Assembly (NCBI RefSeq): GCF_030012215.1
Contig: NZ_JASCXX010000002.1
Location: 186,001 to 250,000, forward strand
DNA: 64,000 nucleotides
Origin: Anaerobaca lacustris
Lineage (GTDB): Bacteria > Planctomycetota > Phycisphaerae > Sedimentisphaerales > Anaerobacaceae
Direction: 5' to 3'
Below the pieces are notes generated by a model that worked only from the letters and a program-made list of their open reading frames with translations, made no database searches and was not told where the DNA came from. Made by a program: the position numbers and the translations under genes. Position 1 is the stretch's first letter, and every line of letters begins with the position of its first letter. This document shows, piece after piece, positions 33,585-45,823 of the stretch.

Positions 33585-33612
33585 ACGTCCCATAAGATAT
33601 GTTATGTTTCAT
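33585..33612 (+). other. Xer dif-like site at the left junction
   Basis: A 28-bp site with the dif architecture: XerC-like arm acgtcccataa (33585-33595), 6-bp centre gatatg, XerD-like arm ttatgtttcat (33602-33612). The inner arms CATAA and TTATG are perfect inverted repeats. By hand comparison, it matches the Bacillus subtilis dif at about 19 of 28 positions and the Escherichia coli dif at about 18 of 28, with the XerD arm 9 of 11 identical to E. coli. The left arm belongs to the host and the right arm came with the element. Confidence 0.65.
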
Positions 33613-33615
33613 TCG
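33596..33615 (+). repeat. Left boundary direct repeat (attL) of the provirus
   Basis: The 20-bp sequence gatatgttatgtttcattcg occurs here and again, perfectly and in the same orientation, at 45804-45823. The two copies exactly bracket the block of leftward virus-like genes. The repeat covers the dif centre, the XerD arm and three further bases. Confidence 0.88.
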
Positions 33616-33654
33616 CTCGATCGCGAACGAAGAGAGGAGAACACCGGCGTTGAT

Positions 33655-33942
33655 TTATTCGGACTTCCCTTCCAGAGCTTTCAGCCGACGATCCACACGC
33701 CCCATCAGGATCGTCTGGTACACCATGCCCGCGACGGCGGCCGTAAAGCCCACGCCGACTGCGATCGCGACGATCGCACTGGTGCCCATGGCGCCGTTGT
33801 GCGAGTCGATCAGTTGATTGATCTGTTCGCGGAGCTGGCGGATCTCGGCGTCGTGGGCCTGGGCGATTGTGGCCAGGTTGGCGACCTTCGTCGCCAGGTC
33901 GCTGTCCTTGGCGAGCTGAAGCAGTTGCAGTAGTTCGATCAT
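33655..33942 (-). CDS. Provirus protein: coiled coil plus one membrane segment
   Basis: 95 residues starting at MIELLQLL, chosen because GGGAG lies 9 nt upstream. A heptad-like helix (about 5-45, AHDAEIRQLREQINQLID) precedes a membrane segment (about 52-76, SAIVAIAVGVGFTAAVAGM) and a short basic tail. It is the last gene of the element, 40 bp from the left repeat, and has its own strong promoter, so it may be made independently of the structural genes, even in the lysogen. No function can be assigned; a virion membrane, lysis or exclusion role are all possible. Confidence 0.7.
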   Translation of the reverse strand: MIELLQLLQLAKDSDLATKVANLATIAQAHDAEIRQLREQINQLIDSHNGAMGTSAIVAIAVGVGFTAAVAGMVYQTILMGRVDRRLKALEGKSE

Positions 33943-34074
33943 GCGGAGTCGCTCCCGTTGGATCGCTTCGGTGGTCTCGATCGGGTGCCGCCCATCGCAA
34001 CTCCCTTGAACCGCCGGCGGCGTCAGCCGCCCTGCCTGCCGTTGTGGGGAACCATTCCCCAACCCTGTACACAG

Positions 34075-34103
34075 AGTATAGCCCGCCCTGGGCCGGTTGT
34101 CAA
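34075..34103 (-). promoter_or_regulatory. Near-consensus promoter inside the provirus
   Basis: Reading leftward: perfect -35 TTGACA (34103-34098), 17-bp spacer, -10 TATACT (34080-34075). It would drive only the last gene of the element with a leader of about 125 nt. Confidence 0.8.
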
Positions 34104-34175
34104 CAAGAAAATGCCGGCTCAGCCGGCTTTCCGCTTGCGAGCACGGCGGCGTCTGTTAAGATGACGCCGTGCGCG

Positions 34176-34217
34176 ATTGGATATCTCCTCTTCCGGCGGG
34201 GAGAGGAGATAGCCAAT
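34176..34217. repeat. 16-bp inverted repeat in the provirus control region
   Basis: Arms 34176-34191 and 34202-34217 pair at 15 of 16 positions around a 10-nt loop, without a T-run on either strand long enough for an ordinary terminator. Confidence 0.7.
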
Positions 34218-34315
34218 CCTCCCGCCCAGCCACAGGGTACTGATTCCTCTTCCGGCTGTAAAGATGTAACAGGGTCCCGAGGGCAGGAATCTCGAAGATT
34301 TTTTTTGCCAGGTGG

Positions 34316-34582
34316 TCAGGCCGTGGACGGCAAGGCCGGCGTCTCGGCCGGCTCGGCAGACGGCTCAAAGGGGTCCTCTCCGCTCAGCCAGGCGGAGATC
34401 TCGTCCAGGGTGTAGGTTACGCTTGTGGGAATGCGGTGATGGTGGATCCTCTCGCCGACCAGGATCGACAGGACCATCTCTCCGGCAGCCTGGTCATAGT
34501 CGATGCGCGCCGCCTGGACGCCGCTGGCCGCCAGGGCCAGCTTGATCGCCACGGGGCTTGACAGGGCCTTCATTAGTCTCAT
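34316..34582 (-). CDS. Provirus hypothetical protein
   Basis: 88 residues. An N-terminal helix (ALSSPVAIKLALAASGV) is followed by a possible small beta domain (ARIDYDQAAGEMVLSILVGERIHHHRIP) and an acidic/Pro-rich C-terminus. I do not recognise it. It lies 21 bp downstream of the holin-like gene and ends before the hairpin cluster, so it is probably the last gene of the long structural transcript. Confidence 0.6.
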   Translation of the reverse strand: MRLMKALSSPVAIKLALAASGVQAARIDYDQAAGEMVLSILVGERIHHHRIPTSVTYTLDEISAWLSGEDPFEPSAEPAETPALPSTA

Positions 34583-34603
34583 ATGGTCAATCCACCACGG
34601 TGG

Positions 34604-34804
34604 TTATAGTCCGAACAGTTTGGCCAGGCTGAACACCGCACTGGCGCCGACCATGCCAACGCCCGCAGCCAGGCCGACGATTTTCGCCTGGAGAATCGCC
34701 AGATTGCGACCGTGCGGACAGGCCTCAATATGGCGGTCCAGAACCCTCTCGATGATCGCGGCGGCGATCTCGCGGCACTCTCGCTGTTGGTCCGGATCGA
34801 GCAC
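34604..34804 (-). CDS. Provirus small membrane protein, holin candidate
   Basis: 66 residues starting at a GTG with GGAGG 9 nt upstream. The soluble N-terminal helix (DQQRECREIAAAIIERVLD) and a Cys-Pro-His-Gly segment precede one hydrophobic C-terminal segment (about 43-64, VGLAAGVGMVGASAVFSLAKL). Size and topology fit small phage holins or virion membrane proteins; its position directly after a lipoprotein gene resembles lysis cassettes, but no endolysin is recognisable nearby. Confidence 0.6.
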   Translation of the reverse strand: MLDPDQQRECREIAAAIIERVLDRHIEACPHGRNLAILQAKIVGLAAGVGMVGASAVFSLAKLFGL

Positions 34805-34808
34805 GTGG

Positions 34809-35453
34809 TCAGCCCTCCTTGATGCGGTTGACGGTCGCGGCGATCGCCGTGCCCTGGTCTTTTTGGAGGATCTTCTTGGCGCCGGCGACGTCGGTGACGA
34901 TCGGGCTGGCCAGGAGCGTGTCGATTGAGCTGATGATCCGCTCGGTCACGTGGCGTGCGTCCGCCGCCGATCGCGAGCCCTTGAGCACCCCGGCCGCCCC
35001 GGCGATCAGACCGCCGACCAGGCCCAGCCAGGCGCCCGTCTTGCCCCCGGCCGATTGACCCGCCGCCGCCAGGCCCGATCCGATCAGCGAGATCTCGTCG
35101 GCGACGTCGAGCGATCCGGAGGCCTTCAGGGCCTCGATCTGGGCCCGGATCTGGGCCAGGGCGGCATCGACCCGCCCCTTGGCCTCGATCGCGTCGTCAC
35201 GGCGAGCCAGGGCCGCCTCGATGCCCGTCAGGATCTCCGTCGCCGCGTCCCCGAGGTTCGGGTCCGCCAGGGCCGTCTTCGCCTGGCCCAGGAACGCATC
35301 GATCGACGCCAGTCGCTCGTCGATCGCCGCACTCGTCGCTTCCAGTCTCGCCACCGCCTGGTCGTAGACGGCCAAGCGATCGGTGGTATTTGTCCCGCAG
35401 CCGGCGAGGCCACAGACCCCGCAGACGACCGCGATCATCGCAAATCGCTTCAT
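34809..35453 (-). CDS. Provirus lipoprotein with helical body and glycine-rich membrane segment
   Basis: 214 residues starting at MKRFAMIAVV, chosen for AAGGA 9 nt upstream. The signal peptide ends in a lipobox (GLAGC, Cys near 19). Long Ala-rich helices (residues 25-125) follow, then a hydrophobic Gly/Ala stretch (TGAWLGLVGGLIAGAAG) near 145. The combination of lipoprotein and second hydrophobic stretch recalls spanin-like or membrane-fusion roles in lysis, but this is speculation. It lies just upstream of the holin-like gene, which supports a lysis module. Confidence 0.65.
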   Translation of the reverse strand: MKRFAMIAVVCGVCGLAGCGTNTTDRLAVYDQAVARLEATSAAIDERLASIDAFLGQAKTALADPNLGDAATEILTGIEAALARRDDAIEAKGRVDAALAQIRAQIEALKASGSLDVADEISLIGSGLAAAGQSAGGKTGAWLGLVGGLIAGAAGVLKGSRSAADARHVTERIISSIDTLLASPIVTDVAGAKKILQKDQGTAIAATVNRIKEG

Positions 35454-35546
35454 CGTGAGCATCCTTGCCGGATTCCATTGCGCCAGAGCCCGCAGGGCGA
35501 ACGATCTCGACCCGGTCCGACCCGCAGCACCCCCGTAAACCGCTCG

Positions 35547-35678
35547 TCAGCGACGACGGCGGCGACGTCGCCGCTTGGCGGCACTGACGCGCCAGCCCCC
35601 CTTGACCTTGTAGACGCTGCCGCCTTTTCGTTTGGCGTTCTTTGCCGATGCCTTCTTCTTGTAGGTCTTCTTCGCCAT
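35547..35678 (-). CDS. 43-residue Lys/Arg-rich basic protein, candidate viral DNA-condensing protein
   Basis: A very short gene with an AGGGAG ribosome-binding site about 11 nt before its ATG, 8 bp after the preceding gene. The protein has 11 Lys and 10 Arg in 43 residues, no acidic residue, an N-terminal KK-x-Y-KKK block, a central GGSVYKVKGGW and a tail of eight consecutive arginines. Such composition is that of nucleic-acid-condensing virion peptides (compare the small basic core proteins of adenoviruses and the basic virion protein of PM2-like viruses). Function is inferred from composition and its place among virion genes. Confidence 0.75.
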   Translation of the reverse strand: MAKKTYKKKASAKNAKRKGGSVYKVKGGWRVSAAKRRRRRRRR

Positions 35679-35686
35679 GCTCTGCG

Positions 35687-36271
35687 TCACTCCCTTCTAG
35701 ATCTGCCTGTCATAACCATCGCCCCAACCAGGCCCGCTGCCAGGAGCCACGGAACCCAGTCGCCCAGCGACGCGACGCCGGGGATCTGGACGTCCACCGA
35801 CCCCGTCTTCTCGTAGGCGCCCAACGCCGCGACCTTGGTCTCCTCTGGGATTCCTGGGTCCTTCACGGTTCGGTGGATGACGTACGACCGGTATATGATT
35901 GCTGCCGGATACGCCGCCACAGCAGCGGCCAACATCGCAACGATAAGCGTCAGCGGAATCCAAATCCCGGCTTCCTGGATCTCTCGCTCCGGCTCCGGCT
36001 CGCCGCGCGGGTAGCGGCGGACGATCGCCTGGACGATCAGGTACTCGACTCTGACCAGGCTTCCGGACCCGACGGATCCGCCGCTCCACTCCCAGCGGTA
36101 CTCCCGCCAGCCACTCTGGTAGTCCAGGCGGGGATCGCTATGGACCGTGTCCTTGATCGCCTTGACCGCCAGGGCGATCATCGTCTCGTTGGATCCGACG
36201 ATCTGGTATTCCAGATCGATCATGTCCCCGCTTTTCAGCACGTTCGTATCGATCGGCGCCGTCTCGGCCAT
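35687..36271 (-). CDS. Provirus two-span membrane protein, putative virion component
   Basis: 194 residues starting at MAETAPIDTN with GGAGA 9 nt upstream; an in-frame extension into the fibre gene lacks a binding site. A soluble N-terminal domain of about 95 residues (EYQIVGSNETMIALAVKAIKD, then SGWREYRWEWSGGSVGSG) precedes a membrane segment near 105-128, a charged loop and a second one near 170-188, ending in RSRRE. I recognise no family. It follows the fibre gene and precedes the basic protein, so a virion or entry-related membrane role is likely. Confidence 0.65.
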   Translation of the reverse strand: MAETAPIDTNVLKSGDMIDLEYQIVGSNETMIALAVKAIKDTVHSDPRLDYQSGWREYRWEWSGGSVGSGSLVRVEYLIVQAIVRRYPRGEPEPEREIQEAGIWIPLTLIVAMLAAAVAAYPAAIIYRSYVIHRTVKDPGIPEETKVAALGAYEKTGSVDVQIPGVASLGDWVPWLLAAGLVGAMVMTGRSRRE

Positions 36272-36285
36272 GATGTCACTCTCTC

Positions 36286-38079
36286 CTAATTCAGGGCCAC
36301 CCAATCGGTGTCGGTCAGGCCCGTGGATTTGTACCACTTCGTTGCGACCGTATCGAGGTACTCCTGTCCGATGTAGTCCGGCGTCACCGCCCCGCTGGGC
36401 GAGCCGCTGCCGGTGGCGCAGTTGACCAGCGTGCCGCCGGCGTCGGGCATTTCGATTGCAATGCCCGCCGTACCGCCATAGGCCGTCATGCCGCCGATGT
36501 ACTCATTCTGTTCGATTCGCAGATCCGTGGCCGCCGCCGCCCGATTGATGCACGTGGTCGCGTCGCTGGCGGACCGGGTCTTGCCGATCAGGTTGCGGGC
36601 GATCCGGGTCCGCCCGCTCGATGCCAGGGTCAGCAGCTGCAGCGCCGAGCCTCGATTCCACGATCCATCGAACAGGCGGCTATCTGTGACGATCAGCTCC
36701 GTCGTCGCGGTCGCCCGCGCGTCGATCAGGTAGCCGCGATAGGCGTCGATGGTCGAATCGGCGATCTGAAGCGAGCCACCGGCCGCTGGATAGATCAGGA
36801 TGCCGTCCGTGTAGCCGCCCTCGAACCGGCAGCCGTTCATGCGCACGTTGTTGACGCCGTCGAATCGCATTCCATAGCGCGCGTTCGCGATGCGCACGTT
36901 GGACAGTGTGACGTCGTTGCAGTCGCCCGCGAATCGCAGCCCGTGGTTGAATCGACTGTAAGTGCTGCTGGCGTGGTTCACGTCGCCGATGAACTGCGCG
37001 TTCGACAGGGACAGGCTGTTGACGTCGGTCGCATACAGGCCGTCGGCGTTCACCGCCGATCCGCCGATGGCGTCCCAGCCCAGCACGATATTCGACAGGA
37101 CCACCTGTGTGACCGTCTGAAAGTAGAACGCCCCCCCTACGGCGTTGGCCTGGCGGGCGAGTCGGCAGTTGTTCACCAGGATCGAGCCGTGGCGATTGCC
37201 TCCGCCCGGATCCGACAGCCTTACCGCCTCTCCGATCTGCCGATAGAACGTGCAGTCGGAGATAATCAGACTGCCCGTGTAGGTCGTGACGTCCGAGTCG
37301 GACAGATAGCCCACGCTGCCGAACTCGAAGACGCAGTTGCGAATGGTCGAATGGAACGCCCGCGCGTGAATCGCCGCCTTGTTGGCGTTGGCACCGGAGA
37401 ACCAGCAGTTCTCGATCACCGAGTCGATCAGGGAACCGTCCGTTGCTCGAATCAGAGCGCCGGTATGGGACCCGGCGACGGGATAGCCGCTGAACAGCAG
37501 GCCATGAATGTGCGTCTGCATCGAGGAGCCCGTCGCCATGATGTCGAGTAGCGTGTCCAACGTGCCGTCCGCCGGCTTGAGGATCGCGCGATGGCCGAAC
37601 AGTTCGACGTTCGTCCGGTTGATCTCGACCGGCGTGCCCAGGACGTAGACACCAGGCGGAAAGTAGATCCTCCTTGCGCCGCCCGTGGCCTTCTCGATGG
37701 CCGCCTGGATCGCCGCCGTATCGTCGGTGGTCCCGTCGCCCAAGGCCCCGAAATGCGTGACGTTGTAGACGCCCGCCTGGCGCGTGACTGCCAGTTCCGC
37801 GTTGTTCGCGTCGGCAATCCACGACTGAATCCACGGCGAGATGCCCAGGCCCGTCAGGCGCGCGGCCGCGTCGGCGTCGCCGATCCGCGTCTGCATCCAC
37901 GCCGACGCCCCCAGGTCCGTCAGTGCCGCTGCATCGTTCGCGTGCGTGAGCCAGTTGACGGACCACGGGGTGGTCACGACGTTGACCCGGCCGGGGTTGA
38001 CCGCCTGGCCGAACGCTCCGGAGCTGCCACAGGCGATCACGAGGATCGCCAACGGGAGACTATGTGATTTCATACGCAT
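36286..38079 (-). CDS. Beta-helix fibre/spike-like protein with secretion signal
   Basis: 597 residues. The N-terminus looks like a Sec signal with a possible lipobox (LVIAC, Cys near 17). Residues 45-100 contain imperfect repeats of the phage-fibre neck type (NDAAALTDLGASAWMQ, DADAAARLTGLGISPWIQ). From about 105 a pectate-lyase-3-type right-handed beta-helix begins (VTHFGALGDGTTDDTAAIQAAIEKA, then FPPGVYVLG) and continues with many strand turns to about 540. A small C-terminal domain ends in KWYKSTGLTDTDWV. Family members bind or cleave surface polysaccharide. It overlaps the previous gene by 20 bp. A signal peptide on a virus fibre is unusual. Confidence 0.82.
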   Translation of the reverse strand: MRMKSHSLPLAILVIACGSSGAFGQAVNPGRVNVVTTPWSVNWLTHANDAAALTDLGASAWMQTRIGDADAAARLTGLGISPWIQSWIADANNAELAVTRQAGVYNVTHFGALGDGTTDDTAAIQAAIEKATGGARRIYFPPGVYVLGTPVEINRTNVELFGHRAILKPADGTLDTLLDIMATGSSMQTHIHGLLFSGYPVAGSHTGALIRATDGSLIDSVIENCWFSGANANKAAIHARAFHSTIRNCVFEFGSVGYLSDSDVTTYTGSLIISDCTFYRQIGEAVRLSDPGGGNRHGSILVNNCRLARQANAVGGAFYFQTVTQVVLSNIVLGWDAIGGSAVNADGLYATDVNSLSLSNAQFIGDVNHASSTYSRFNHGLRFAGDCNDVTLSNVRIANARYGMRFDGVNNVRMNGCRFEGGYTDGILIYPAAGGSLQIADSTIDAYRGYLIDARATATTELIVTDSRLFDGSWNRGSALQLLTLASSGRTRIARNLIGKTRSASDATTCINRAAAATDLRIEQNEYIGGMTAYGGTAGIAIEMPDAGGTLVNCATGSGSPSGAVTPDYIGQEYLDTVATKWYKSTGLTDTDWVALN

Positions 38080-38665
38080 GTGCGATTTCCGTTCCGTTTT
38101 CGCTGGCCGCCCAGACGGCGCCGGTGTACTGTTCTCGCCACGATCCGCCCGCCATCATGCCGAAGAAGGTGTCCGCGACGTCGGTGACCGCGTTGGTCGG
38201 TCCGAGATACAGGTTGCCCGCGTTCGTCAGATCCGCCGTGACCAGGGCCCACTTGCGGGCCGGGTTGGCGGCGAGGATCTGCGTGGAGCCGACGCCCGTC
38301 TGTGCGACCGGGTTGTGGTCGCTCTGCGTCATCGTGGCGCCCGGCACCAGGCCGGCCTCGATGTTGGCCAGGCTCGCGACCATCGCGACGATCAGCGAGT
38401 CCGATGCGATCAGGACCGGGCTGTCGGCGATGTAGAGCTGGACCGTGGCGGCGACGCCGCCGGCGTTGAGCAGCTCGATCCGCTCATAACTGGCCTCGAT
38501 CGGGAACTGAAGGCCGGCGACGATCTGCTGAGGGGGATCGTCATCGACGCCCATCAGGATCGTGCTGGCCGAGATATTCAGCACGGTGATGAACTTGCCC
38601 CATGCGCCGATCCGTGCCCGGGCGCCGGCGGCAAGGGTTCGCGACTCATAACGTGGTGTCCTCAT
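38060..38665 (-). CDS. Provirus beta-rich protein, candidate penton or minor capsid protein
   Basis: 201 residues, rich in predicted short beta strands with two similar halves (ITVLNISASTILMGVD...ERIELLNAGGVAATVQLYIADSP and ARKWALVTADLTNAGNLYLGP). This pattern is common in vertex, spike-base or minor capsid proteins of tailless viruses. The start overlaps the upstream stop by ATGA and the next gene is the fibre protein, which fits a vertex complex of penton plus spike. Assignment is by character and position only. Confidence 0.6.
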   Translation of the reverse strand: MRTPRYESRTLAAGARARIGAWGKFITVLNISASTILMGVDDDPPQQIVAGLQFPIEASYERIELLNAGGVAATVQLYIADSPVLIASDSLIVAMVASLANIEAGLVPGATMTQSDHNPVAQTGVGSTQILAANPARKWALVTADLTNAGNLYLGPTNAVTDVADTFFGMMAGGSWREQYTGAVWAASENGTEIAHAYEIT

Positions 38666-39087
38666 CGTCGCCTCACTACGGCAATCGCGATCACACCGAC
38701 GATCGCGAAGGGAATGTACTGTTTCCAGTCGATCGAGCGGCCCTGCGTCGCCGCCGTGACGCCGGTGATCGTCAGCTCGGCGAGACGGTGCGCGGCATCA
38801 TCGCTTTGGCGATTGATCTCCTGCTGGGCCTCCATGATCTTGAGCAGGTCGTCGCCCCCCATGCCGCTGTAGTTGTAGGCGACGTCCTGGGTGACGTTCG
38901 CCTTGGGCCCCGCGACGATCGCCCCGAGCTGCCCGCTGGCGGCGCCGGCGCCCACGACCGAGCCGGGCGAGCCTCCGATCTGGATGTCGCCCTGGGTGGC
39001 CTGGGTGTACGTTTCGGTCGTCGCGGTCTGGTAGGTCTTCTTTTCGCTGGTTCCGCCGCCGAAGAAGCCGCCGCTGAACATGCTCAT
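38662..39087 (-). CDS. Provirus Gly/Thr-rich protein with C-terminal membrane anchor
   Basis: 141 residues. A Gly/Ser/Thr/Gln-rich N-terminal half (residues 1-75) leads to a helix (DDLLKIMEAQQEINRQSDDAAHRLAEL) and a C-terminal membrane segment (about 121-138) ending in RRR. Overlaps its upstream and downstream neighbours by ATGA. The same plan (flexible part, then anchor, then RR) recurs in the two genes upstream, suggesting a set of virion membrane proteins. Confidence 0.7.
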   Translation of the reverse strand: MSMFSGGFFGGGTSEKKTYQTATTETYTQATQGDIQIGGSPGSVVGAGAASGQLGAIVAGPKANVTQDVAYNYSGMGGDDLLKIMEAQQEINRQSDDAAHRLAELTITGVTAATQGRSIDWKQYIPFAIVGVIAIAVVRRR

Positions 39088-39311
39088 TTGCGTCGCCCTC
39101 CCAACGCCAGGACCAGCACCACGGCCACCGCCGCGACGGCGACGACCATCGACGTGTTGGAGTCCATCGAAAAGCCGGTCTTCGGCAGTCCGCCGCCGAA
39201 CGTGACGTTGCCGGCAGAGACCGACTGCGTGTCACCGCCGAGCGATTGCGGGGCGTTGGCGCCCTGGGCGCCCCCGCCTGACGAACTCATGGCACCGAGC
39301 AAACCGAGCAT
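39084..39311 (-). CDS. Provirus 75-residue single-span membrane protein
   Basis: Begins MLGLLGAMSSSGGG with a strong GGAGGT 4 nt before the ATG. A Gly/Ser-rich segment (residues 9-45) is followed by one membrane helix (about 54-70, MVVAVAAVAVVLVLAL) and GGRRK at the end. In size and layout it resembles small membrane proteins of lipid-containing phages; a resemblance to filamentous-phage coat proteins is superficial given the capsid gene nearby. Confidence 0.75.
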   Translation of the reverse strand: MLGLLGAMSSSGGGAQGANAPQSLGGDTQSVSAGNVTFGGGLPKTGFSMDSNTSMVVAVAAVAVVLVLALGGRRK

Positions 39312-39313
39312 GG

Positions 39314-39562
39314 CTACCTCCGGAACAACAGGATCAGCAGGACGATCGCGGCCCCGAGGAACAGCAGGTTCGCCCCGGCGCTGTCGGCCTGGGTCGTGCC
39401 CTGTGGCTGCGCCGTGGTCTGCGGCGTGACCGGCTGTTCGGCTATGCCGCCCGTGCTCGTGGACGTCTTGCCCGTGACCTTGTCGATCGCGTCCATGCCG
39501 TGTCCGATGATCGCGCTGATGTCGGCGGCGCCCTTCTGGATGTCTTCGAGCGTCCAGCCCAT
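39314..39562 (-). CDS. Provirus 82-residue single-span membrane protein
   Basis: Begins MGWTLEDIQKGAAD; this ATG is preferred over one four codons upstream because GGAGG sits 5 nt before it. An amphipathic N-terminal helix, a Thr/Gln-rich linker (GGIAEQPVTPQTTAQPQGTT) and a C-terminal membrane helix (LLFLGAAIVLLILLF) ending in RR. Lies 64 bp after the capsid gene, consistent with an abundant virion membrane protein. Confidence 0.75.
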   Translation of the reverse strand: MGWTLEDIQKGAADISAIIGHGMDAIDKVTGKTSTSTGGIAEQPVTPQTTAQPQGTTQADSAGANLLFLGAAIVLLILLFRR

Positions 39563-39626
39563 ACGGGCCTCCATTCACCAATCACTTAACGAGGAGCTGC
39601 GAGTTACACCGATCATCTAACGCGGA

Positions 39627-40523
39627 TCACTCGCGGATCGTCGTGTGGACCTCTTCGGAGAGGATCACCGTGCCGGCGCCCGGAGCGACGTTGCAGTTGG
39701 GGATCACGTTCCACTCGCCGGCGACGCCCCCGAGCCGCTCGACGCTGTGCAGATCGTTGCCCAACGAGAAGTCGATCGTCTCGTAGCCGGCCTGGGGCGT
39801 GCGCCCCGACATGTCCTGCATGATCCGCATCACGTCCACGTGCTGCTCTTTGAAGAGGAACTCGCGGTTCTTGGTCACGCTGATCCGGTCGGTCCGCCCG
39901 GCCGCGACGACCAGGTGGTAGGCGGCGATCCCGTAGTAGGATCGCGGCAGATCGGTGATGTACAGATCGCCGGTGCCCAGCAGATCCCGCGTGGTCCGCA
40001 GGCGCCGCATGTGCAGGCCCGTCTGCTCGGCGGGATAGACGTCGCTGATGACGTGGATCTCGCCCGTGACGGCGGTCGCCACACCGGCCGTCATCGTGAC
40101 CTCGACGGTCAGCGAGTTGTAGCCGCCCCGGCTGTTGAGCATGCCCAACGCGAACCCGCGTCGCTGATCGAAGATCGGCATGTTGAAGTTCATGAACGGG
40201 ACCACGATCGTGCCCAGCGGCGCCGCCAGGGCCCCGAACTTGTCGAAGTGGTACTTGTACTCGTCCAGCGCCTCGGTCGCCGTGCGATCGTAGATCAGAT
40301 CGCCGTTGAGCCAGGCCCGGATCGTCGCCACGTCGGTGATGAGCTGGGCCCGCGTCAGCGGGGCCGGCACGACCGACGCGAAGTACAGCATGATCGCGTG
40401 GACGTTGTTGGCGGTCTGGATCGCGAAGTTGTTGACCGCACTGGCCGCCACGGACTGAAGGTTGGCGTAGCGCCAGCTCCTCAGGGTGGTCGGCAGGATT
40501 ACGTTGGTGGCCTCATTTGCCAT
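39627..40523 (-). CDS. Candidate double-jelly-roll major capsid protein
   Basis: 298 residues starting at MANEATNVILPTT, with GGAG 9 nt upstream; the longer open frame before it covers the neighbouring gene and is not coding. The sequence falls into two beta-rich halves of similar plan. Half one (about 18-165) has NNFAIQTANNVHAIMLYF, an inter-strand IRAWLNGDLIYD with an alpha-helical EALDEYKYHFDKFG, then IVVPFMNFNMPIF and YNSLTVEVTMTAG. Half two (about 185-298) has YYGIAAYHLVVAAGRTDRISVTKNR, FLFKEQHVD and so on. This order (ligand-type G-D-L-I-Y turn followed by helix, then P-F-x-N-F/MPIF strand) is what I know from PM2/FLiP-group double-jelly-roll capsid proteins, and the length fits. Structure prediction would be decisive. 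Confidence 0.75.
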   Translation of the reverse strand: MANEATNVILPTTLRSWRYANLQSVAASAVNNFAIQTANNVHAIMLYFASVVPAPLTRAQLITDVATIRAWLNGDLIYDRTATEALDEYKYHFDKFGALAAPLGTIVVPFMNFNMPIFDQRRGFALGMLNSRGGYNSLTVEVTMTAGVATAVTGEIHVISDVYPAEQTGLHMRRLRTTRDLLGTGDLYITDLPRSYYGIAAYHLVVAAGRTDRISVTKNREFLFKEQHVDVMRIMQDMSGRTPQAGYETIDFSLGNDLHSVERLGGVAGEWNVIPNCNVAPGAGTVILSEEVHTTIRE

Positions 40524-40591
40524 GATCGTCGCTCCATCAGGAGGGTGGTTGCTGGTTCCTACCGTTCGCCGCACTCGCCACTCGCCGCGCT

Positions 40592-40762
40592 TCAGACGTT
40601 CGGGAAGTACTGGGCGACGGAACCTGGGATCTTGCTGGTGATGCCGGCCGATCCCGCCAGACTCAGGACGATCTTGATCGCCACCAGGGCGACGAAGATC
40701 TGCACGCCGCCGCGAAGCGTGGGGATGTAGGCCTTCCAGCCGGTTCGCTGCCTCTTTGCCAT
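40592..40762 (-). CDS. Provirus 56-residue single-span membrane protein
   Basis: Short gene immediately upstream of the capsid gene, with GAGGTG 5 nt before the ATG. It reads MAKRQRTGWKAYIPTLRGG, then one membrane helix (about 21-37, QIFVALVAIKIVLSLAG), then ITSKIPGSVAQYFPNV. The basic N-terminus would face the cytoplasm or virion interior. It heads the second, structural gene block after the terminator at 40869. A virion membrane role is inferred from position. Confidence 0.75.
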   Translation of the reverse strand: MAKRQRTGWKAYIPTLRGGVQIFVALVAIKIVLSLAGSAGITSKIPGSVAQYFPNV

Positions 40763-40868
40763 CGCTGCACCTCATCAAATGGGTTCGTGGTCCCCTGTGC
40801 TCCCACGTTGCCCATTTGACCATCGAATTCGCCCGCGTATAGGGCAAATCCATTTTTTTTTCAGGTCC

Positions 40869-40920
40869 GAAAAAACGGCCCGGCGTCGCGGGTGGTGCAC
40901 AGGGTTGGGCGCCGGGCCGT
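40869..40920 (-). terminator. Rho-independent terminator between the two provirus gene blocks
   Basis: Reading leftward: a perfect 11-bp GC-rich stem (40920-40910 pairing with 40885-40875), a 24-nt loop and a run of six T (40875-40870). It separates the ATPase-containing block from the capsid block. No promoter of good quality is visible before the gene at 40762; a TATACG at 40841-40836 is the best candidate -10. Confidence 0.85.
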
Positions 40921-40928
40921 CGAGAGAG

Positions 40929-41409
40929 CTATCCGGGAATCCTCGCCGCGATCGCCGCGACGACCTTGTTCACTTCCCCCCAGCGTCGAAAGGCAGCTCT
41001 GCACCGCCTGCTCGTTCGCGTCCAGTGCGTCGCTCTGGGCACTGGCGTTCGCCTCGAGCCCCGCGACGAATTCGTTCAGGCGCTCCACGCGATGGCGCAG
41101 ATCCTCGATCGCCGCGTTCGCGATCCGCACTCGCTCTTTCTCGAGCGCCGCCAGGCGGTCCTTGATCGCCTGGATCTCCACGTCCTGCGTCTGACTCGCC
41201 GCCTTGATCGATCCGACGACCGAGAGCGCATCGTTGCGCCCGCGATCAGCCGCCTTGACCACCTCGACCAGGTCCGCCAGGCCGCGCTGCAACACGTCGC
41301 GGATCTCGACCAGGCAGACCGCCTCCATGTACGCCGCCCATTGCTGGTCGCTCTTGCCGTTGTTGTTATTCAGGATCAGCTCCAACTGATCTCGATCGAA
41401 CATCTTCAT
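40929..41409 (-). CDS. Provirus coiled-coil protein, reading frame apparently shifted at a G6 tract
   Basis: Starts at MKMFDRDQLELIL overlapping the upstream stop by ATGA. About 143 residues of charged helix (VLQRGLADLVEVVKAADRGR, KDRLAALEKERVRIANAA, DLRHRVERLNEFVAGLE) read well in one frame. At the run of six C on the + strand (40976-40981) the frame then runs into an Arg-rich tail through the terminator to 40861. With one G fewer it would continue STLGEVNKVVAAIAARIPG and stop at 40929, just before the terminator. I take the latter as the original end. Function unknown. Confidence 0.6.
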
Positions 41410-41621
41410 CCCTTTCCAAAGGCGTCTTTGACGATCTTGTACACCAGCTCCTCGCAGGAGCACTCGAAGTACTTGCACATCTCCGCGATGTCGGCCAGGC
41501 TCACGCTCGATCCGGCCAGCCAGCCCATCACGTGCTTCTCGTACGTCCTGCGATCGCAGCTCGGATCCGGCGGCCTCAGCTCACACAGCTTGCCGAACGC
41601 CTCGGCCTTCGTGTCACTCAT
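41406..41621 (-). CDS. Provirus 71-residue protein, possible HTH regulator
   Basis: Begins MSDTKAEAFGKL and overlaps both neighbours by ATGA. The C-terminal half (WLAGSSVSLADIAEMCKYFECSCEELVYKIV) resembles the recognition half of a Cro/C1-type helix-turn-helix, where the block S-x-x-D-I-A-x-x-C-K-Y-F-x-x-S-x-E-E-L is common. A first helix of a full HTH is not evident, so DNA binding is tentative. Would be the only candidate regulator of the element. Confidence 0.6.
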   Translation of the reverse strand: MSDTKAEAFGKLCELRPPDPSCDRRTYEKHVMGWLAGSSVSLADIAEMCKYFECSCEELVYKIVKDAFGKG

Positions 41622-41926
41622 ACCAGCTCCTTTCGGCACGGGACGCCGTCCGGGTCGTTGTGCTCGACGGGCCGGGCGATCCCGACGCGACTGGTACACT
41701 CGACGTCTTTGCCGCAACGAGGACACTGCATCCGTCGCGGCGCACCCGGCGCCCGAGCCGGCTTCTTGCCTGTTCGTCTCGTCGGCGCCCGGGCCGGTTT
41801 GCTCGGCTTCGCCTCGTTGCCGGCGGCGAGCTGAGCGCTCAGCGCGACGATGTCTTGCTCGGCTTCCTGGAAGCGACGTCCCGCCTCGATCAGCTTGCCG
41901 ACCAGTTCCGCCCGGCTGTCCATCAT
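41618..41926 (-). CDS. Provirus small zinc-finger-like protein
   Basis: 102 residues; the double ATG at 41926 has a perfect AAAGGAGG 5 nt upstream. N-terminal coiled helix (AELVGKLIEAGRRFQEAEQDIVALSAQL), a basic Lys/Pro/Arg linker (KPSKPARAPTRRTGKKP), then a C-terminal zinc-ribbon-like unit with CPRCG, a cysteine ten residues on and a further cysteine (VPC). Function unknown. Confidence 0.7.
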   Translation of the reverse strand: MMDSRAELVGKLIEAGRRFQEAEQDIVALSAQLAAGNEAKPSKPARAPTRRTGKKPARAPGAPRRMQCPRCGKDVECTSRVGIARPVEHNDPDGVPCRKELV

Positions 41927-41940
41927 GCAGCCTCCTTTGC

Positions 41941-42666
41941 TCAGTACAGCACCGGCGCCCGGTTCGGCGGCGGCGTGGCCTCGATCAGGATCGTCACGAC
42001 CGTGGCGATCGGTTCTCCGTACAGCGGCGCATCGACGGCGCGCACAACGATCGCGTGCACGCCGGGCCTCAGCTCCCCCGCCAGCGTCCAAGACCCGGCG
42101 GCAGCATCGTGCGTGACGCCGACGCCTGGCGGAGCGGACAGGACCTCGATCGTGAAGGGATCGCCGTCCGGATCGCAGGCCTCAGCGGTCCGGTTGAACT
42201 TGCCCGCGGTCACCTGGTGACAATCGATCAACAGGCCCACGATCGCGTTGGGGTCGTGCTCGAACGGGACCGGTCCGATCCAGACCGGCTGGACGCATTC
42301 GTTCGGGTCCATCGCGGCGGCGAACTTCGGCCACCACGAACGAATCTTTTGCAGGCCGTGCCAGAGCCGCTGGCGCTGGGCGACCGAGACGACCGGGTCC
42401 GCCATGCACTCGACGATCGGCCAGAGGCTCTCGGGGTTGCGGGCCCACCACTCGACGAACTCCCTCTCGCCGCCGATCCGCGTGACCTGGTCGAGAAGCT
42501 CCGCCGGTACCGGCACGCGGACCGGCGGCTCAGCGCCCGCGACGATGGGTTCGAGATACGCCAGCGCCACGAACAGCAGCGCGATCAGTGCCACGATCGA
42601 CGCGACGATCGCCCACTCCGTCAGGTTCCGTTCTTTCACGTTGTTCATGGCAGCGTCCTTTCGCAT
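41941..42666 (-). CDS. Provirus membrane-anchored protein with Ig/cadherin-like C-terminal domain
   Basis: 241 residues from MRKDAAMNN (or 235 from the second Met). One membrane helix (about 17-38) follows a short cytoplasmic tail. The middle is helical and Trp-rich (FVEWWARNPESLWPIVECM). The last 110 residues look like a small beta-sandwich of the He_PIG/cadherin kind (ACDPDGDPFTIEVLSAPPGVGV, GELRPGVHAIVVRAVDAP). It overlaps the upstream gene by 22 bp. Likely displayed on a membrane surface, either of the virion or of the lysogen. Confidence 0.7.
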   Translation of the reverse strand: MRKDAAMNNVKERNLTEWAIVASIVALIALLFVALAYLEPIVAGAEPPVRVPVPAELLDQVTRIGGEREFVEWWARNPESLWPIVECMADPVVSVAQRQRLWHGLQKIRSWWPKFAAAMDPNECVQPVWIGPVPFEHDPNAIVGLLIDCHQVTAGKFNRTAEACDPDGDPFTIEVLSAPPGVGVTHDAAAGSWTLAGELRPGVHAIVVRAVDAPLYGEPIATVVTILIEATPPPNRAPVLY

Positions 42667-42857
42667 CGTTTGCAGCGGTTCTCCGGCATCATCCGCAGCC
42701 AGATCGCCGGGTCGTTACAGTCCACTCCCAATCGTCCTTCCGGAGGAACTGCTGCGTATGCCTGCCGGCCATAACGGATTCCACAGCGTGTCACGGCGTC
42801 GCAGCCACCGTCGAACGTTCGCATGCAGTGCGAGACGATGCGTGTCATGCGGGCCAT
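42645..42857 (-). CDS. Provirus Cys-rich 70-residue protein
   Basis: Starts MARMTRIVSHCMRTF, overlapping the ATPase stop by 13 bp. Six cysteines, including C-x8-C, a central CxND and a C-terminal RCKRCE pair, suggest one or two bound zinc ions. The end fits a zinc-ribbon knuckle. No known family recognised; reading frame chosen because the longer frame upstream is a shadow of the ATPase. Confidence 0.65.
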   Translation of the reverse strand: MARMTRIVSHCMRTFDGGCDAVTRCGIRYGRQAYAAVPPEGRLGVDCNDPAIWLRMMPENRCKRCERTLP

Positions 42858-43477
42858 CGCGCCACCTCGATCTTTCCGCCCTGCTGCCAGTGGACGTGCT
42901 CGTACTGGGCGAGCTGGGCCATCTTCAATTCGACTTCGATGCCGAGCCAGTCGGACAGATAGGCCAGGTCCGCCGGCTCCTGGCTGTGGAACACGTACGC
43001 TTCGCGGGCCTCGGATCGCACCTCGATCGGGATGCCCTTGGGCCGCTGGCTCATCAGCCAGCACCGCACGCCCCGCGTGCGGCCGGCGGTCAGGAGCGAT
43101 TTGAACTCCTGGCCGTAGTCGGTCTTGCGAAAGACGCTGCTGGTCACGTAGCCGCCCAGCTCTTCGCAGACGAAGTCCATGTCGCCGCAGCGATAGACCA
43201 GGCCCGCGATCGCGTTGAACTCCTCGAAGCTCCACGGGTCGCGCGGGCGATACACGATCCGGAACCGATTCGCCCTGGCGTTGGCCAGTCGCCACCAGCG
43301 GAGCATCGTCTCCCGCTCGCCGGCCAGACCGTCGAAGTAGACCCCGTGATAGCCGCATTCCTCGCGCTTGGTCAGATAGACCAGGCAGCGGGAGCTGCCG
43401 GCGATCGCCCGCTCGACCAGGAACGTCTTTCCCGATCCCGTCTGTCCACTGACGAAGATGTTTCGCCCGTCACTCAT
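42845..43477 (-). CDS. HerA/FtsK-superfamily packaging ATPase
   Basis: 210 residues. Walker A GQTGSGKT at 11-18, Walker B MDFVCEE at 100-106, an Arg-containing AGRTRG at 131-136 and the polar SQRPKGIP at 143-150 with the following FHSQEPADL block. These are the landmarks of the genome-packaging ATPases of tailless viruses with double-jelly-roll capsids (PRD1 P9, PM2 P9 type) and distinguish it from terminases. Zot-like ATPases of filamentous phages are the main alternative, but they carry a membrane segment, and none is present here. Overlaps the upstream gene by 8 bp. Confidence 0.85.
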   Translation of the reverse strand: MSDGRNIFVSGQTGSGKTFLVERAIAGSSRCLVYLTKREECGYHGVYFDGLAGERETMLRWWRLANARANRFRIVYRPRDPWSFEEFNAIAGLVYRCGDMDFVCEELGGYVTSSVFRKTDYGQEFKSLLTAGRTRGVRCWLMSQRPKGIPIEVRSEAREAYVFHSQEPADLAYLSDWLGIEVELKMAQLAQYEHVHWQQGGKIEVARWPA

Positions 43478-43724
43478 CCGGCTCTTTCAGATACGAGAAG
43501 CCCGGCAGCGGCTCCGCCAGGCGGACGCTTTCGTCGAATGCGATCGGCTCCCGCCGCCAGGTGTCGCTCTTCATGTCCACGAACTGCCGATCGTCGCCGG
43601 CGGTCCGCATGAACCCGACGCAGTGGACGCCGGACATCAGGCGCCAGTACGACCAGCGGCGAACCACGTTGCCGGCCGGCGCTGCGCTCCGTCGCGGCCG
43701 GCCGGCAGGTTTCGGAGATGTCAT
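43470..43724 (-). CDS. Provirus 84-residue protein before the ATPase
   Basis: Starts MTSPKPAGRPRRS at an ATGA overlap with the preceding gene. A basic disordered N-terminus leads to a compact part (VVRRWSYWRLMSGVHCVGFMR, then DRQFVDMKSDTWRREPIAFDESVRLAEPLPG). Not recognised. Its coupling to the ATPase gene suggests involvement in packaging. Confidence 0.6.
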   Translation of the reverse strand: MTSPKPAGRPRRSAAPAGNVVRRWSYWRLMSGVHCVGFMRTAGDDRQFVDMKSDTWRREPIAFDESVRLAEPLPGFSYLKEPDE

Positions 43725-44416
43725 CCGTGCTTCTCCACGTTTGCGGCGGTCCCCGCCGCCCGCTCCGTCTGTTGTTCCCGTCGGCGCCGGACGAGGGCCC
43801 GGTCGACCACGATGATCTCGGCCAGCTCCTCGGCGATGTCGGCGGCGACCAGGCCGGTGGCCACGATCGCCAGACTGACCGGATCGTCCGGATTGAGGCT
43901 CGCGTAGCGCCGCGCGTAGTGGTCGAAGATCACGTAGCTCGGCCTGGCCAGATCCGGCGCGCGTTTCTTCGCCAGGTTGCCGATCGCCGTCTGGCCGTCC
44001 TTGTCGATGACGCCCAGCGTGCACAGCACCAGGCCCAGCGTGCGAAACGGCACGCGGCAGACCCCTTCCCAGGCGCTCCGGGTCAGCAGGGCCTCGTCTG
44101 CGAGAGGACCGGCCGGCGCCTGTTGTGACGTGCCGACACGATCGGCGCCGTCCGCCGGCCGGTCCTGTGAAGAAAAGGAATCTGAAGTCTGAGTCTGCTT
44201 CAGCTCGGCGTCGATCGCGGCGTTGAACTCCTCGACGCTTCGCGGCTCTGCCTTGCGGTCCGTCGGCTTGGGCGCCGGCGTCTCGGGTTTGCCGGAGGCC
44301 TCCGCGTCAGCTCGAGCGCGCTGCGCTGCCTGCCTCTTGCGGATCGCGTTCGGCGTCATCGACAGCGCCGGTTTCTTGCGTGGCTTTTTGTCCTTGGCTC
44401 CCTTAGTGCGTGCCAT
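43721..44416 (-). CDS. Provirus 231-residue protein of unknown function
   Basis: Starts MARTKGAKDKKPRKK, overlapping the preceding stop (TGATG). A strongly basic N-terminus (residues 1-45) and a disordered, Ser/Gln-rich middle precede a folded helical C-terminal half (WEGVCRVPFRTLGLVLCTLGV, YVIFDHYARRYASLNPDDPVSLAIVATGLVAADIAEEL). The C-terminal half may associate with membranes. The basic part could bind DNA, so a packaging or replication role is possible, but I recognise no motif of a replication initiator. Confidence 0.6.
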   Translation of the reverse strand: MARTKGAKDKKPRKKPALSMTPNAIRKRQAAQRARADAEASGKPETPAPKPTDRKAEPRSVEEFNAAIDAELKQTQTSDSFSSQDRPADGADRVGTSQQAPAGPLADEALLTRSAWEGVCRVPFRTLGLVLCTLGVIDKDGQTAIGNLAKKRAPDLARPSYVIFDHYARRYASLNPDDPVSLAIVATGLVAADIAEELAEIIVVDRALVRRRREQQTERAAGTAANVEKHG

Positions 44417-44706
44417 CAAAAGTCCTCGTCCTCGTCGTCTTCGTCCCCGTCGTCGTCATCCGGTTCGTCGGGTTCGTCCGTCGGTTCGTCGGCGTTGCTC
44501 GATCCGCCGGAGATCTGTTCGCGGAGCTTGCGGATCTCGTCATCCTGCTCGGCGACCTTCTTCTTGAGCTGGTCGAACTCGGCGACGGCTTCGAGCTTCG
44601 CCTCGCCGGCCCGAAACCGGAACGTGCCGCCGCAGCCGGTGCAGACGACCTTGCCGCCCTCGCCGGCGACGGCCGGCGTGCCACAGTTGGGGCATTTCAA
44701 CTCCAT
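44416..44706 (-). CDS. Provirus zinc-ribbon / coiled-coil / acidic-tail protein
   Basis: 96 residues. An N-terminal zinc ribbon (CPNCG at 5-9, CTGCG at 22-26), a helix with heptad spacing (FDQLKKKVAEQDDEIRKLREQI, about 44-66) and a tail made almost entirely of Asp and Glu. Strong acidic tails of this kind often mimic DNA or contact basic partners; the basic 43-residue protein of the same element is an obvious candidate, by inference only. Confidence 0.7.
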   Translation of the reverse strand: MELKCPNCGTPAVAGEGGKVVCTGCGGTFRFRAGEAKLEAVAEFDQLKKKVAEQDDEIRKLREQISGGSSNADEPTDEPDEPDDDDGDEDDEDEDF

Positions 44707-44709
44707 GCG

Positions 44710-44895
44710 TCACCCCCTGCTCATCTTGTCGAGGAGCGTGCTGATCGCGTCGAGGTTCGCCCTGGCCTCGGCCAGGCCGGCCTCCAGCTCGGCGATCCGG
44801 CCCTCCAGGTCGTGCGCGTTGACCCGGAACGATCGACCCCGCGGCGACGTCGCCTTGATCGGCGTCTTGACGGCCTCTTCCTGCTTCTTGCCCAT
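44710..44895 (-). CDS. Provirus 61-residue coiled-coil protein
   Basis: Starts MGKKQEEAVKTP with GGAG 8 nt upstream. Basic N-terminus, then one heptad helix (VNAHDLEGRIAELEAGLAEARANLDAISTLLDKM). Only 3 bp separate its stop and the next gene. No further assignment possible. Confidence 0.65.
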   Translation of the reverse strand: MGKKQEEAVKTPIKATSPRGRSFRVNAHDLEGRIAELEAGLAEARANLDAISTLLDKMSRG

Positions 44896-44898
44896 GAG

Positions 44899-45114
44899 TC
44901 ACTCCTTTGCAAAGTCAAACCACAACTGTCCTCGCTTGGGCTCGGCGGCGATCCGCCGAAGCGTCCCAAGCCAGTAGATCTGCTGCCGGCACTTGTCGCA
45001 GAGATCTCCGCAGGCCTCCGCTCGATCCAGCTCGATCGTCCGCTGTCCCGTGTCCCGCCGGCCGCACGCCAGCCGGTCGCGGCGATCGCGGATGTGCACC
45101 CTCTGCCCCCGCAC
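44899..45114 (-). CDS. Provirus 71-residue zinc-binding-type protein
   Basis: Starts at a GTG with GGGGA 6 nt upstream; the frame is closed shortly before. Four cysteines are arranged as C-G-R-R ... C-G-D-L-C-D-K-C, consistent with one zinc site, followed by QIYWLGTLRRIA. Ends 3 bp before the next start. Not recognised beyond that. Confidence 0.6.
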   Translation of the reverse strand: MRGQRVHIRDRRDRLACGRRDTGQRTIELDRAEACGDLCDKCRQQIYWLGTLRRIAAEPKRGQLWFDFAKE

Positions 45115-45183
45115 GTCGCGTCCCCCGTCCGAACGTCGAACGCCTCCATGTCACCATGTCGCTGTCCTTATCCAAAGTATGAA

Positions 45184-45756
45184 CTATGAACCGACCTTCT
45201 GCACCTTTCGCGGCCTGGTCGCCGCCTCTTTCGCGGCCTTCGCGAGAATCTTCCGCCCGGCGGCGCCCACACCATCCTTGCCCAGCGGCGCCGGCTCGAC
45301 CGTGTACACCTTCTCATAGTGCCCGTGATTGGTCATCAGCTTGCCTTTGTAGGTGATGGTGATGCGCTGCCAGAGGCACTTGCTTTTGTCGATCAGCTTG
45401 CGGAGTCGGCGGTTGTTCGGCAGATAGACCAGGCTGTTGTCATCGAGCACCAGGGGAAAGAGATATTCGAAGGACGCGGACGTGCCGCGCGGGATCTGCG
45501 CCTTCTGCGATTCGCCAAGCACGCCGGTGAGCGATTCGCCCGGCGTGTGGAAGTAGTGAATGACGGCGCCGTCGGCCGTGCGGCGATCGTAGTTGAACCG
45601 GCGGGACCGCATCGTCGCCGCCGAGTACCGCTTGCCCGCGGCGAAGGCCTCCGGGTCCGGCTTGCTCCGCCCCGCATGCTCGCGAATCTGTTTGACGATC
45701 TGCTTTTCGCTGGGCCGCTCGGCCGCCGTGCCCTGTTTGAGCGCCTTCTTTGCCAT
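45184..45756 (-). CDS. First gene of the provirus, unknown 190-residue protein
   Basis: Starts MAKKALKQGTAAE with GGGAG upstream, 47 bp inside the right repeat. Basic ends flank a predicted beta-rich core (RFNYDRRTADGAVIHYFHTPGESLTGVLG, then SFEYLFPLVLDDNSLVYLPNN, then LWQRITITYKGKLMTNHGHYEKVYTVEP). The last part resembles the OB-fold strands of single-stranded-DNA-binding phage proteins that fall in early operons. I do not see the His-hydrophobic-His or Tyr motifs of rolling-circle initiators. ssDNA binding is a hypothesis only. Confidence 0.65.
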   Translation of the reverse strand: MAKKALKQGTAAERPSEKQIVKQIREHAGRSKPDPEAFAAGKRYSAATMRSRRFNYDRRTADGAVIHYFHTPGESLTGVLGESQKAQIPRGTSASFEYLFPLVLDDNSLVYLPNNRRLRKLIDKSKCLWQRITITYKGKLMTNHGHYEKVYTVEPAPLGKDGVGAAGRKILAKAAKEAATRPRKVQKVGS

Positions 45757-45803
45757 CGACCGGTTCTCCCGGCCGGCGTCCCCATCCCATTCCAGACCTG
45801 CTG

Positions 45804-45823
45804 GATATGTTATGTTTCATTCG
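45804..45823 (+). repeat. Right boundary direct repeat (attR) of the provirus
   Basis: Perfect copy of the left repeat. Here the 11 bases to its left (cagacctgctg) do not match a XerC arm, so this junction has only the centre and XerD half of the dif-like site. The degenerate XerC side would come from the element's own attachment site, the XerD side from the host. Confidence 0.88.

Follow-up and report, generated by a model that had tools for sequence, protein, structure and literature searches.

The window, i.e., the whole stretch of 64,000 nucleotides of Anaerobaca lacustris DNA that was analyzed, contains a provirus of 12,208 bp (33596..45803) between two attachment (att) cores, its limits being given by repeat positions and by alignment of the joined host flanks with the empty dif sites of two other genomes (G005 and G001). 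The att sites form a 20 bp direct repeat and are dif-like, with the 11-6-11 layout of Xer arms. attL (33585..33614, plus strand), found by pattern search and as a repeat, is a complete dif composed of the XerC arm ACGTCCCATAA, the centre GATATG and the XerD arm TTATGTTTCAT. attR (45793..45823, plus strand), recognized by its repeat with attL, has the same centre and XerD arm and a divergent XerC arm, CAGACCTGCTG. Direct repeats flank all four integrated elements of this kind that were detected (those of the window, G002, G029, and G035). The left repeats are full dif sites with the XerC arm ACGTCYCATAA, a 6 bp centre and the XerD arm TTATGTTTCAT, which in G029 reads TTATGTTACAC; the right repeats keep the XerD arm and have divergent XerC arms. 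The four elements occupy the same position, with a floA-like gene group on one side and, on the other, a gene encoding a TPR protein followed by a response-regulator gene (names read from the sequences).

A dif pattern allowing up to 3 mismatches occurs once per genome in 73 of the 89 genomes of the host family, and the reversed pattern, used as a control, gave 0 in all rows; in G035 nothing matches the pattern at this tolerance, and the dif sites were taken from the L010 sequence itself. The neighborhood of dif was inspected in 68 of the 73 genomes (G492, G493, G034, and G027 were left out) and separately for G029 in L008. In 58 of the 68 loci, 63-228 bp separate dif from the TPR gene, and thus the gap between them is normally empty. 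The other 10 comprise the elements of G000 and G002, two contig ends (G470 and G489) and six loci (G003, G004, G014, G466, G478, and G480) with a longer gap or with the TPR gene absent from the stretch. Enlarged gaps measure 2.1 kb in L058 (G004), more than 5.4 kb in L071 (G466), 1.4 kb in L083 (G478) and 1.2 kb in L085 (G480), and tblastn of these four with the window capsid protein and ATPase gave no match; dif apparently receives other insertions besides these elements. At the dif of G003 (L057, 960-1223, reverse complement) there is an adjoining 87 aa ORF related to the last gene of the window element (48% over 42 aa; E = 1e-6 when just the two proteins were compared), with no capsid or ATPase match nearby, and it appears to be what is left of a decayed provirus. 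GC skew, taken over the window and over 20 stretches from each of G016 and G006, did not locate the replication terminus relative to dif, and the positions of dnaA and dnaN in seven genomes were indecisive.

All the genes assigned to the provirus are encoded on the minus strand and are described here from attR to attL. Gene 1 (45184..45756), which adjoins attR, encodes a protein of 190 aa without a family match that is kept in five of the six elements known and is a candidate replication or ssDNA-binding protein. After several small proteins there follow a zinc-ribbon-like protein of 96 aa (44416..44706; matches to Pfam zinc ribbons all under the cut-off), a basic protein of about 230 aa (43721..44413) with orthologues in G002 and G489, a P9-like packaging ATPase of 210 aa (42845..43477) with the Walker A motif GQTGSGKT (phrog_2666, 1.8e-22) and a 241 aa protein with an N-terminal hydrophobic stretch (41941..42666) which has an orthologue in G002 only. 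Between the latter and a hydrophobic protein of 56 aa (40592..40762; orthologues in G002 and G489) there are small ORFs, among them one that matches an HTH family below threshold and one that is coiled-coil-like. The gene for the major capsid protein (MCP; 39627..40523) comes next and is followed by an 81 aa protein with a C-terminal hydrophobic segment (39314..39559), a hydrophobic-tailed protein of about 75 aa (39084..39311; an ORF reading), a 141 aa protein, also with a C-terminal hydrophobic segment (38662..39087), and a 201 aa protein (38060..38665), the last two present in all six elements. A spike of 597 aa, beta-helix/pectate-lyase-like (36286..38079; PF12708, 6.8e-18, and phage tail-spike PHROGs), precedes a membrane-protein-like ORF of 216 aa at its longest (35687..36271) with orthologues in four of the six elements, in place of which G033 and G035 have their own related ORF pair. 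Toward attL are found an arginine/lysine-rich peptide of 47 aa (35547..35690; five of the six elements) that is possibly a DNA-binding virion peptide, a lipoprotein-like ORF of 217 aa (34809..35462; orthologue in G002) with a signal-peptide and lipobox-like start recognized by eye, further small ORFs, and, beside attL, a last gene of up to 135 aa with a hydrophobic segment (33655..34062; orthologue in G002). Start codons of ORFs fall inside the att site in the window (33612, minus), L016 (5696, minus) and L009 (6523, plus), the site reading ATG-TTT-CAT on one strand and ATG-AAA-CAT on the other, so that integration could change the sequence behind such starts.

This arrangement, ATPase-(P7)-MCP-(P3)-small hydrophobic proteins-201 aa-spike-(P5), runs parallel to that of phage PM2, P9-P7-P2-P3-P4-P8-j-P1-P5-P6. 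The 56 aa protein stands in the place of P7, consistent with its PM2 order, the 81 aa protein in that of P3, the 75 aa protein, by position only, in that of P4/P8, the 201 aa protein in that of gp j (with no convincing PM2 match), the spike in that of P1 and the membrane-protein-like ORF in that of P5. The parallel is positional, confident sequence matches being confined to the ATPase and the MCP when cluster profiles were compared with 41 phage proteins of PM2, NO16, and one autolykivirus. The six-member ATPase profile matched the ATPase of NO16 (4.9e-18), PM2 P9 (5.7e-13) and also the autolykivirus ATPase; as single sequences, the window ATPase matched packaging-type ATPases of Thermus phage phiKo (1e-5) and Lysinibacillus phage phiG2 (4e-4), and that of G033 matched the NO16 ATPase at 3e-10. 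An FtsK/HerA-type packaging ATPase is therefore present near the MCP. The 81 aa cluster profile gave weak matches to a NO16 P3-like protein (5.9e-5) and PM2 P8 (4.1e-4), perhaps due to the hydrophobic segment; the 141 aa and 216 aa clusters reached one protein each (0.0029 and 0.001) and for the clusters of the 201 aa protein, the 230 aa protein and gene 1 no value fell below 0.016. As regards the internal virion membrane of the Vinavirales/PM2 group, what is seen here is limited to small hydrophobic proteins near the MCP, whose hydrophobic segments were read by eye.

The MCP gene was the starting point of this work, and the coordinates given to it in the preliminary description are correct: 40523..39627 on the minus strand is an open frame of 298 aa with an ATG start (MANEATN...) and without an internal stop, in which both motifs singled out there, GDLIY and IVVPFMNF, are found. 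The gene has one copy in the source genome (5.73 Mb, 117 contigs). The suggestion that it encodes a capsid protein on the PM2 plan is supported by Pfam, by profile matches and by two features of its surroundings, the packaging ATPase close by and a gene order like that of PM2. The protein matches both Pfam domains of the PM2 P2 family, P2_N (25.7 bits, 1e-5) and P2_C (34.4 bits, 2.3e-8), above their cut-off of 25. Of the five further homologues, those in G029 and G033 also clear both cut-offs, those in G002 and G035 clear that of P2_C alone, and the one in G489 matches neither domain. A profile of five MCPs matched, over nearly its whole length, the PDB entries 9t9v ("Double jelly roll capsid protein"; 9.8e-18) and 2vvf (PM2 P2; 5.5e-7). 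When the profile of all six was run with hmmsearch on the 41 phage proteins, it recovered the MCPs of NO16 (2.7e-17), the autolykivirus (5.5e-12) and PM2 (1.1e-8), every other protein scoring at 0.35 or above. The double jelly roll (DJR) guess is supported by the above-threshold Pfam domains and the profile matches to PM2 P2 and 9t9v, and the gene is, as judged from these profiles and from the tree given below, the MCP of a PM2-group provirus. The expectation of very low identity to any known capsid was also right at the level of single sequences: neither the window MCP nor that of G035 gave a tblastn match with E up to 1 in a set of 50,697 phage records, the best PDB chain for the window MCP alone was 9t9v at E = 0.033, and no PHROG was matched. 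The G033 MCP gave weak tblastn matches to NO16 and autolykivirus MCPs (E at least 0.2), mycobacteriophage tail proteins being matched about as well. Single-sequence MCP scans of collections of genome contigs and viral contigs returned no relatives, and alignment or single-protein scans of the viral contigs confirmed none.

Structure prediction of the MCP from its single sequence gave a mean pLDDT of 28.5, and the model built from three sequences reached 37.7, values above 50 being confined to parts of residues 29-159, i.e., only part of the first half is resolved and the second half has no resolved fold. The fold comparison proposed in the preliminary description was carried out on this low-confidence model with a mixed outcome: DJR capsids lead for the first half (PRD1 P3, Z 13.2; FLiP, 10.9; STIV, 10.4), but PM2 P2, at Z 7.7, lies within the background of unrelated GOLD and subtilase domains, which score 7 to 8.7 in VIA-align. 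Foldseek placed poxvirus D13 scaffolds at rank 1 and PM2 P2 at rank 6, with low TM-scores. The structural evidence is thus supporting only, and the MCP claim rests on sequence profiles since unrelated beta-sandwiches reach Z 8.7. As regards the claim of two similar halves, the protein does have two separately modelled domains, P2_N and P2_C, but a likeness between them is invisible in the sequence. No duplication of halves was found: hhalign of the N-half against the C-half profiles of the six homologues gave a probability of 0.3% and column-shuffled controls equaled or exceeded the score in 14 of 100 cases.

A maximum likelihood tree of 14 MCPs separated the six Phycisphaerae proteins from eight known ones (four of corticoviruses, three of autolykiviruses and one of an unclassified Vibrio phage) with a branch support of 100/99. 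The element is a deep new branch of the known PM2-type phages. The branch may be of family level or deeper, the tree having a midpoint root and a small sample, 8 of 29 candidate records; the others were 13 further PM2/Cr39582/NO16-like records, the autolykiviruses 1.008.O and 1.080.O and six large-phage records with weak matches.

By profile search, the MCP is carried by six of the 89 genomes of the host family, the source genome included, and by two of the six genomes of the genus, in which G002 is placed; a single-sequence search had found it in five of 61 genomes, again counting the source. The same six were recovered among 161 genomes of the order, four (all within the host family) among 298 of the class and the source genome alone among 392 of the phylum, the class and phylum sets being samples. 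Four of the copies are in the one dif gap and span three genera, with identities to the window MCP down to 29%, and two (G033 and G489) are on circular-looking contigs. The G033 contig of 10,767 bp has a terminal overlap of 84 bp, leaving 10,683 bp, and that of G489, of 12,296 bp, an overlap of 99 bp, leaving 12,197 bp; overlaps of this sort usually mark a circular genome. Both contigs have dif-like sites, with a centre longer than 6 bases in G489. The two contigs may be circular for a different reason or may have been binned wrongly. In L009 (G033), two inverted dif-like sites are located about 0.9 kb apart, at 6521 (plus) and about 7440 (minus); the attP of CTXphi consists of two inverted sites folded together.

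The elements vary in content. The ATPases of the window and G002 are 87% identical and their MCPs 56-57%, suggesting mosaic exchange. Large spike-sized ORFs are present in the window genome (G000; 597 aa), G029 (743 aa), G489 (827 aa) and G035 (609 aa, no family match), and none was found in the G002 and G033 elements. HNH-type endonuclease ORFs are located near the ATPase in L010 (11935-12276) and L009 (491-835); HNH_3 was matched by two of the 99 ORFs scanned, these two being assigned by reading the sequence. Gene 1 lies next to an att site in the five elements other than G029, in which the gene-1 place (L008, 6389-8061) is occupied by a canonical SSB (2.9e-30; 6389-6778 by sequence) and a Rep_trans replication initiator (9.1e-14). 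This is a replication-module swap inside one capsid clade. Outside G029, no replication initiator was recognized in the window element or the others among the 23 Pfam families, the best 25 of 37 PHROGs and 25 of 32 NCBIfam families matched by 99 of the 155 candidate ORFs of the six elements. This bulk scan passed over the MCPs, the window ATPase and spike (scanned separately) and, in G029, the spike-sized ORF; some of the very short ORFs and those on the opposite strand were likewise left aside, and G002 contributed two of its 23 ORFs.

No integrase was found among the 23 Pfam families matched by the scanned ORFs, and no Xer-type recombinase match lies on the element contig in any of the six genomes. 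A host XerC above the curated cut-off is present in eight of the nine genomes tested, each with a second strong Xer match (with one internal stop codon in G035), the exception being G003, a 75% complete genome. In the window genome, the best match to the XerD model scored 321.2 bits against a cut-off of 329.6. G035 has 31 XerC-model matches, 26 of them at 93-124 bits and mostly frames of about 200-300 aa over many contigs; these make up an expanded recombinase family. Integrated elements that exploit Xer recombination are named IMEX; of their traits, dif-like flanking repeats at the chromosomal dif, together with empty sites, and the lack of a match to an integrase of their own are seen here.

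Based on this evidence, the most probable reading, to which we give a probability of about 0.93, is that of a PM2-group phage residing at the dif site of a Phycisphaerae chromosome as a provirus of 12.2 kb which looks complete, with a XerC/XerD cycle proposed for its integration and release. From the anatomy of the locus, integration and release by host XerC/XerD at dif would be the simplest account, the use of host Xer being deduced from the att structure, the empty sites, the absence of an integrase match and the presence of host Xer genes. The circular phage genome would carry a dif-like attP, as the dif-like sites on the two circular-looking contigs suggest, and host XerC and XerD would recombine it with the chromosomal dif, a phage integrase being unneeded. 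As attL has the XerC arm of the empty host sites, a complete dif would be rebuilt on that side, and the divergent XerC arm of attR is presumably phage-derived. Upon induction, and judging by homology and gene order, trimers of the P2-type protein would enclose an internal membrane in a shell, the DNA would be packaged by the P9-type ATPase and the beta-helix spike would bind the host surface. A broader reading, that the six elements constitute a DJR phage group of family level or higher, confined to one Phycisphaerae family at dif, in which five of the six have an undescribed gene-1 replication system replacing the initiator and the sixth has Rep_trans and SSB, is put forward tentatively and is, in our estimation, on the doubtful side.

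The provirus could alternatively be a defective remnant that no longer makes particles. The replication initiator, unrecognized in the window element, and the apparent decayed remnant at the G003 dif would agree with decay; however, the core genes are open and are common to two circular-looking genomes of similar size, and we regard this explanation as unlikely, although the best placed of the alternatives. Much less probable is a capsid operon that has been domesticated and is inherited vertically at a fixed locus, as a nanocompartment or something like a gene transfer agent. This idea arose from the four elements at one locus, i.e., one chromosomal gap in four genomes of three genera with MCPs diverged to 29% identity, and the missing integrase match would suit it; it was dropped because of the presence of the MCP in only six of the 89 family genomes (and two of the six of the genus) and the dif-like direct repeats at four of four integrated copies, to which the empty dif sites of relatives, the two circular-looking copies and the lone related ORF at the G003 dif can be added. 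Finally, the preliminary description proposed that the MCP may define its own capsid lineage. A separate lineage unrelated to PM2 P2 would agree with the lack of tblastn and PHROG matches and with the marginal single-sequence PDB result, but it is scarcely credible: the Pfam domains, the PDB profile matches and the cluster HMM matches to the NO16, autolykivirus and PM2 MCPs speak against it, and the tree sets the protein on a deep branch next to the known MCPs of the PM2 type.

A provirus in the dif of a Phycisphaerae bacterium extends the PM2-type tailless phages to hosts of the Planctomycetota, and the dif-site lifestyle of NO16, Jorvik, and PhiCjT23 probably occurs in this phylum too. The gap floA-dif-TPR provides a conserved landmark for finding further small Phycisphaerae phages. 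No report of a DJR, PM2 or Vinavirales phage of Planctomycetes or Phycisphaerae was found in the literature outside subscription papers, preprints and supplements; one article, the title of which deals with cellular homologues, joins DJR/Vinavirales and planctomycete terms (PMC8812541).

Among the known systems, PM2 (a Pseudoalteromonas phage of the Corticoviridae, Vinavirales) shares with the element the P2 family MCP, the P9 ATPase and the order P9-P7-P2-P3...P1-P5. Its circular genome has about 10 kb, compared with 12,208 bp for the integrated element and 10,683 and 12,197 bp for the relatives, sizes that fit the small circular genome (about 9-12 kb) of the Vinavirales/PM2 group, and a presumptive dif site is reported for it in PMC9966536. 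Unlike PM2, the element has an MCP beyond the reach of pairwise search, a large beta-helix spike at the P1 place, no recognized P12-like replication protein and a Phycisphaerae host. According to PMC9502842, nearly all members of the Vinavirales have a recognizable replication protein, and replacement of replication genes is described there. Autolykiviridae (e.g., 1.044.O) have a DJR MCP related by profile (5.5e-12) but differ in their linear record, type B DNA polymerase and putative terminal protein. FLiP and PhiCjT23 also have DJR MCPs but are ssDNA phages, and FLiP MCPs form a separate DJR group (PMC5894146).

The Vibrio phage NO16 (proposed Asemoviridae) gave the best matches to both the ATPase (4.9e-18) and the MCP (2.7e-17) among the 41 proteins, but it has a host of another phylum and the remaining protein clusters match weakly at best. 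The dif/XerCD mode itself is not new because it was already proposed for NO16, with dif-like sites and XerCD integration (PMC9966536), for PhiCjT23-like prophages, flanked by dif sites with a Xer mode (PMC9719478), and for Jorvik and Jorvik-like prophages, PM2-like and without an integrase, with dif-like attP/attB and XerCD (PMC10589892). The Jorvik MCP was absent from the tree and from the 29 candidate records. Jorvik has alphaproteobacterial hosts and an attB of varying location, whereas the four integrated elements described here occupy one conserved dif gap.
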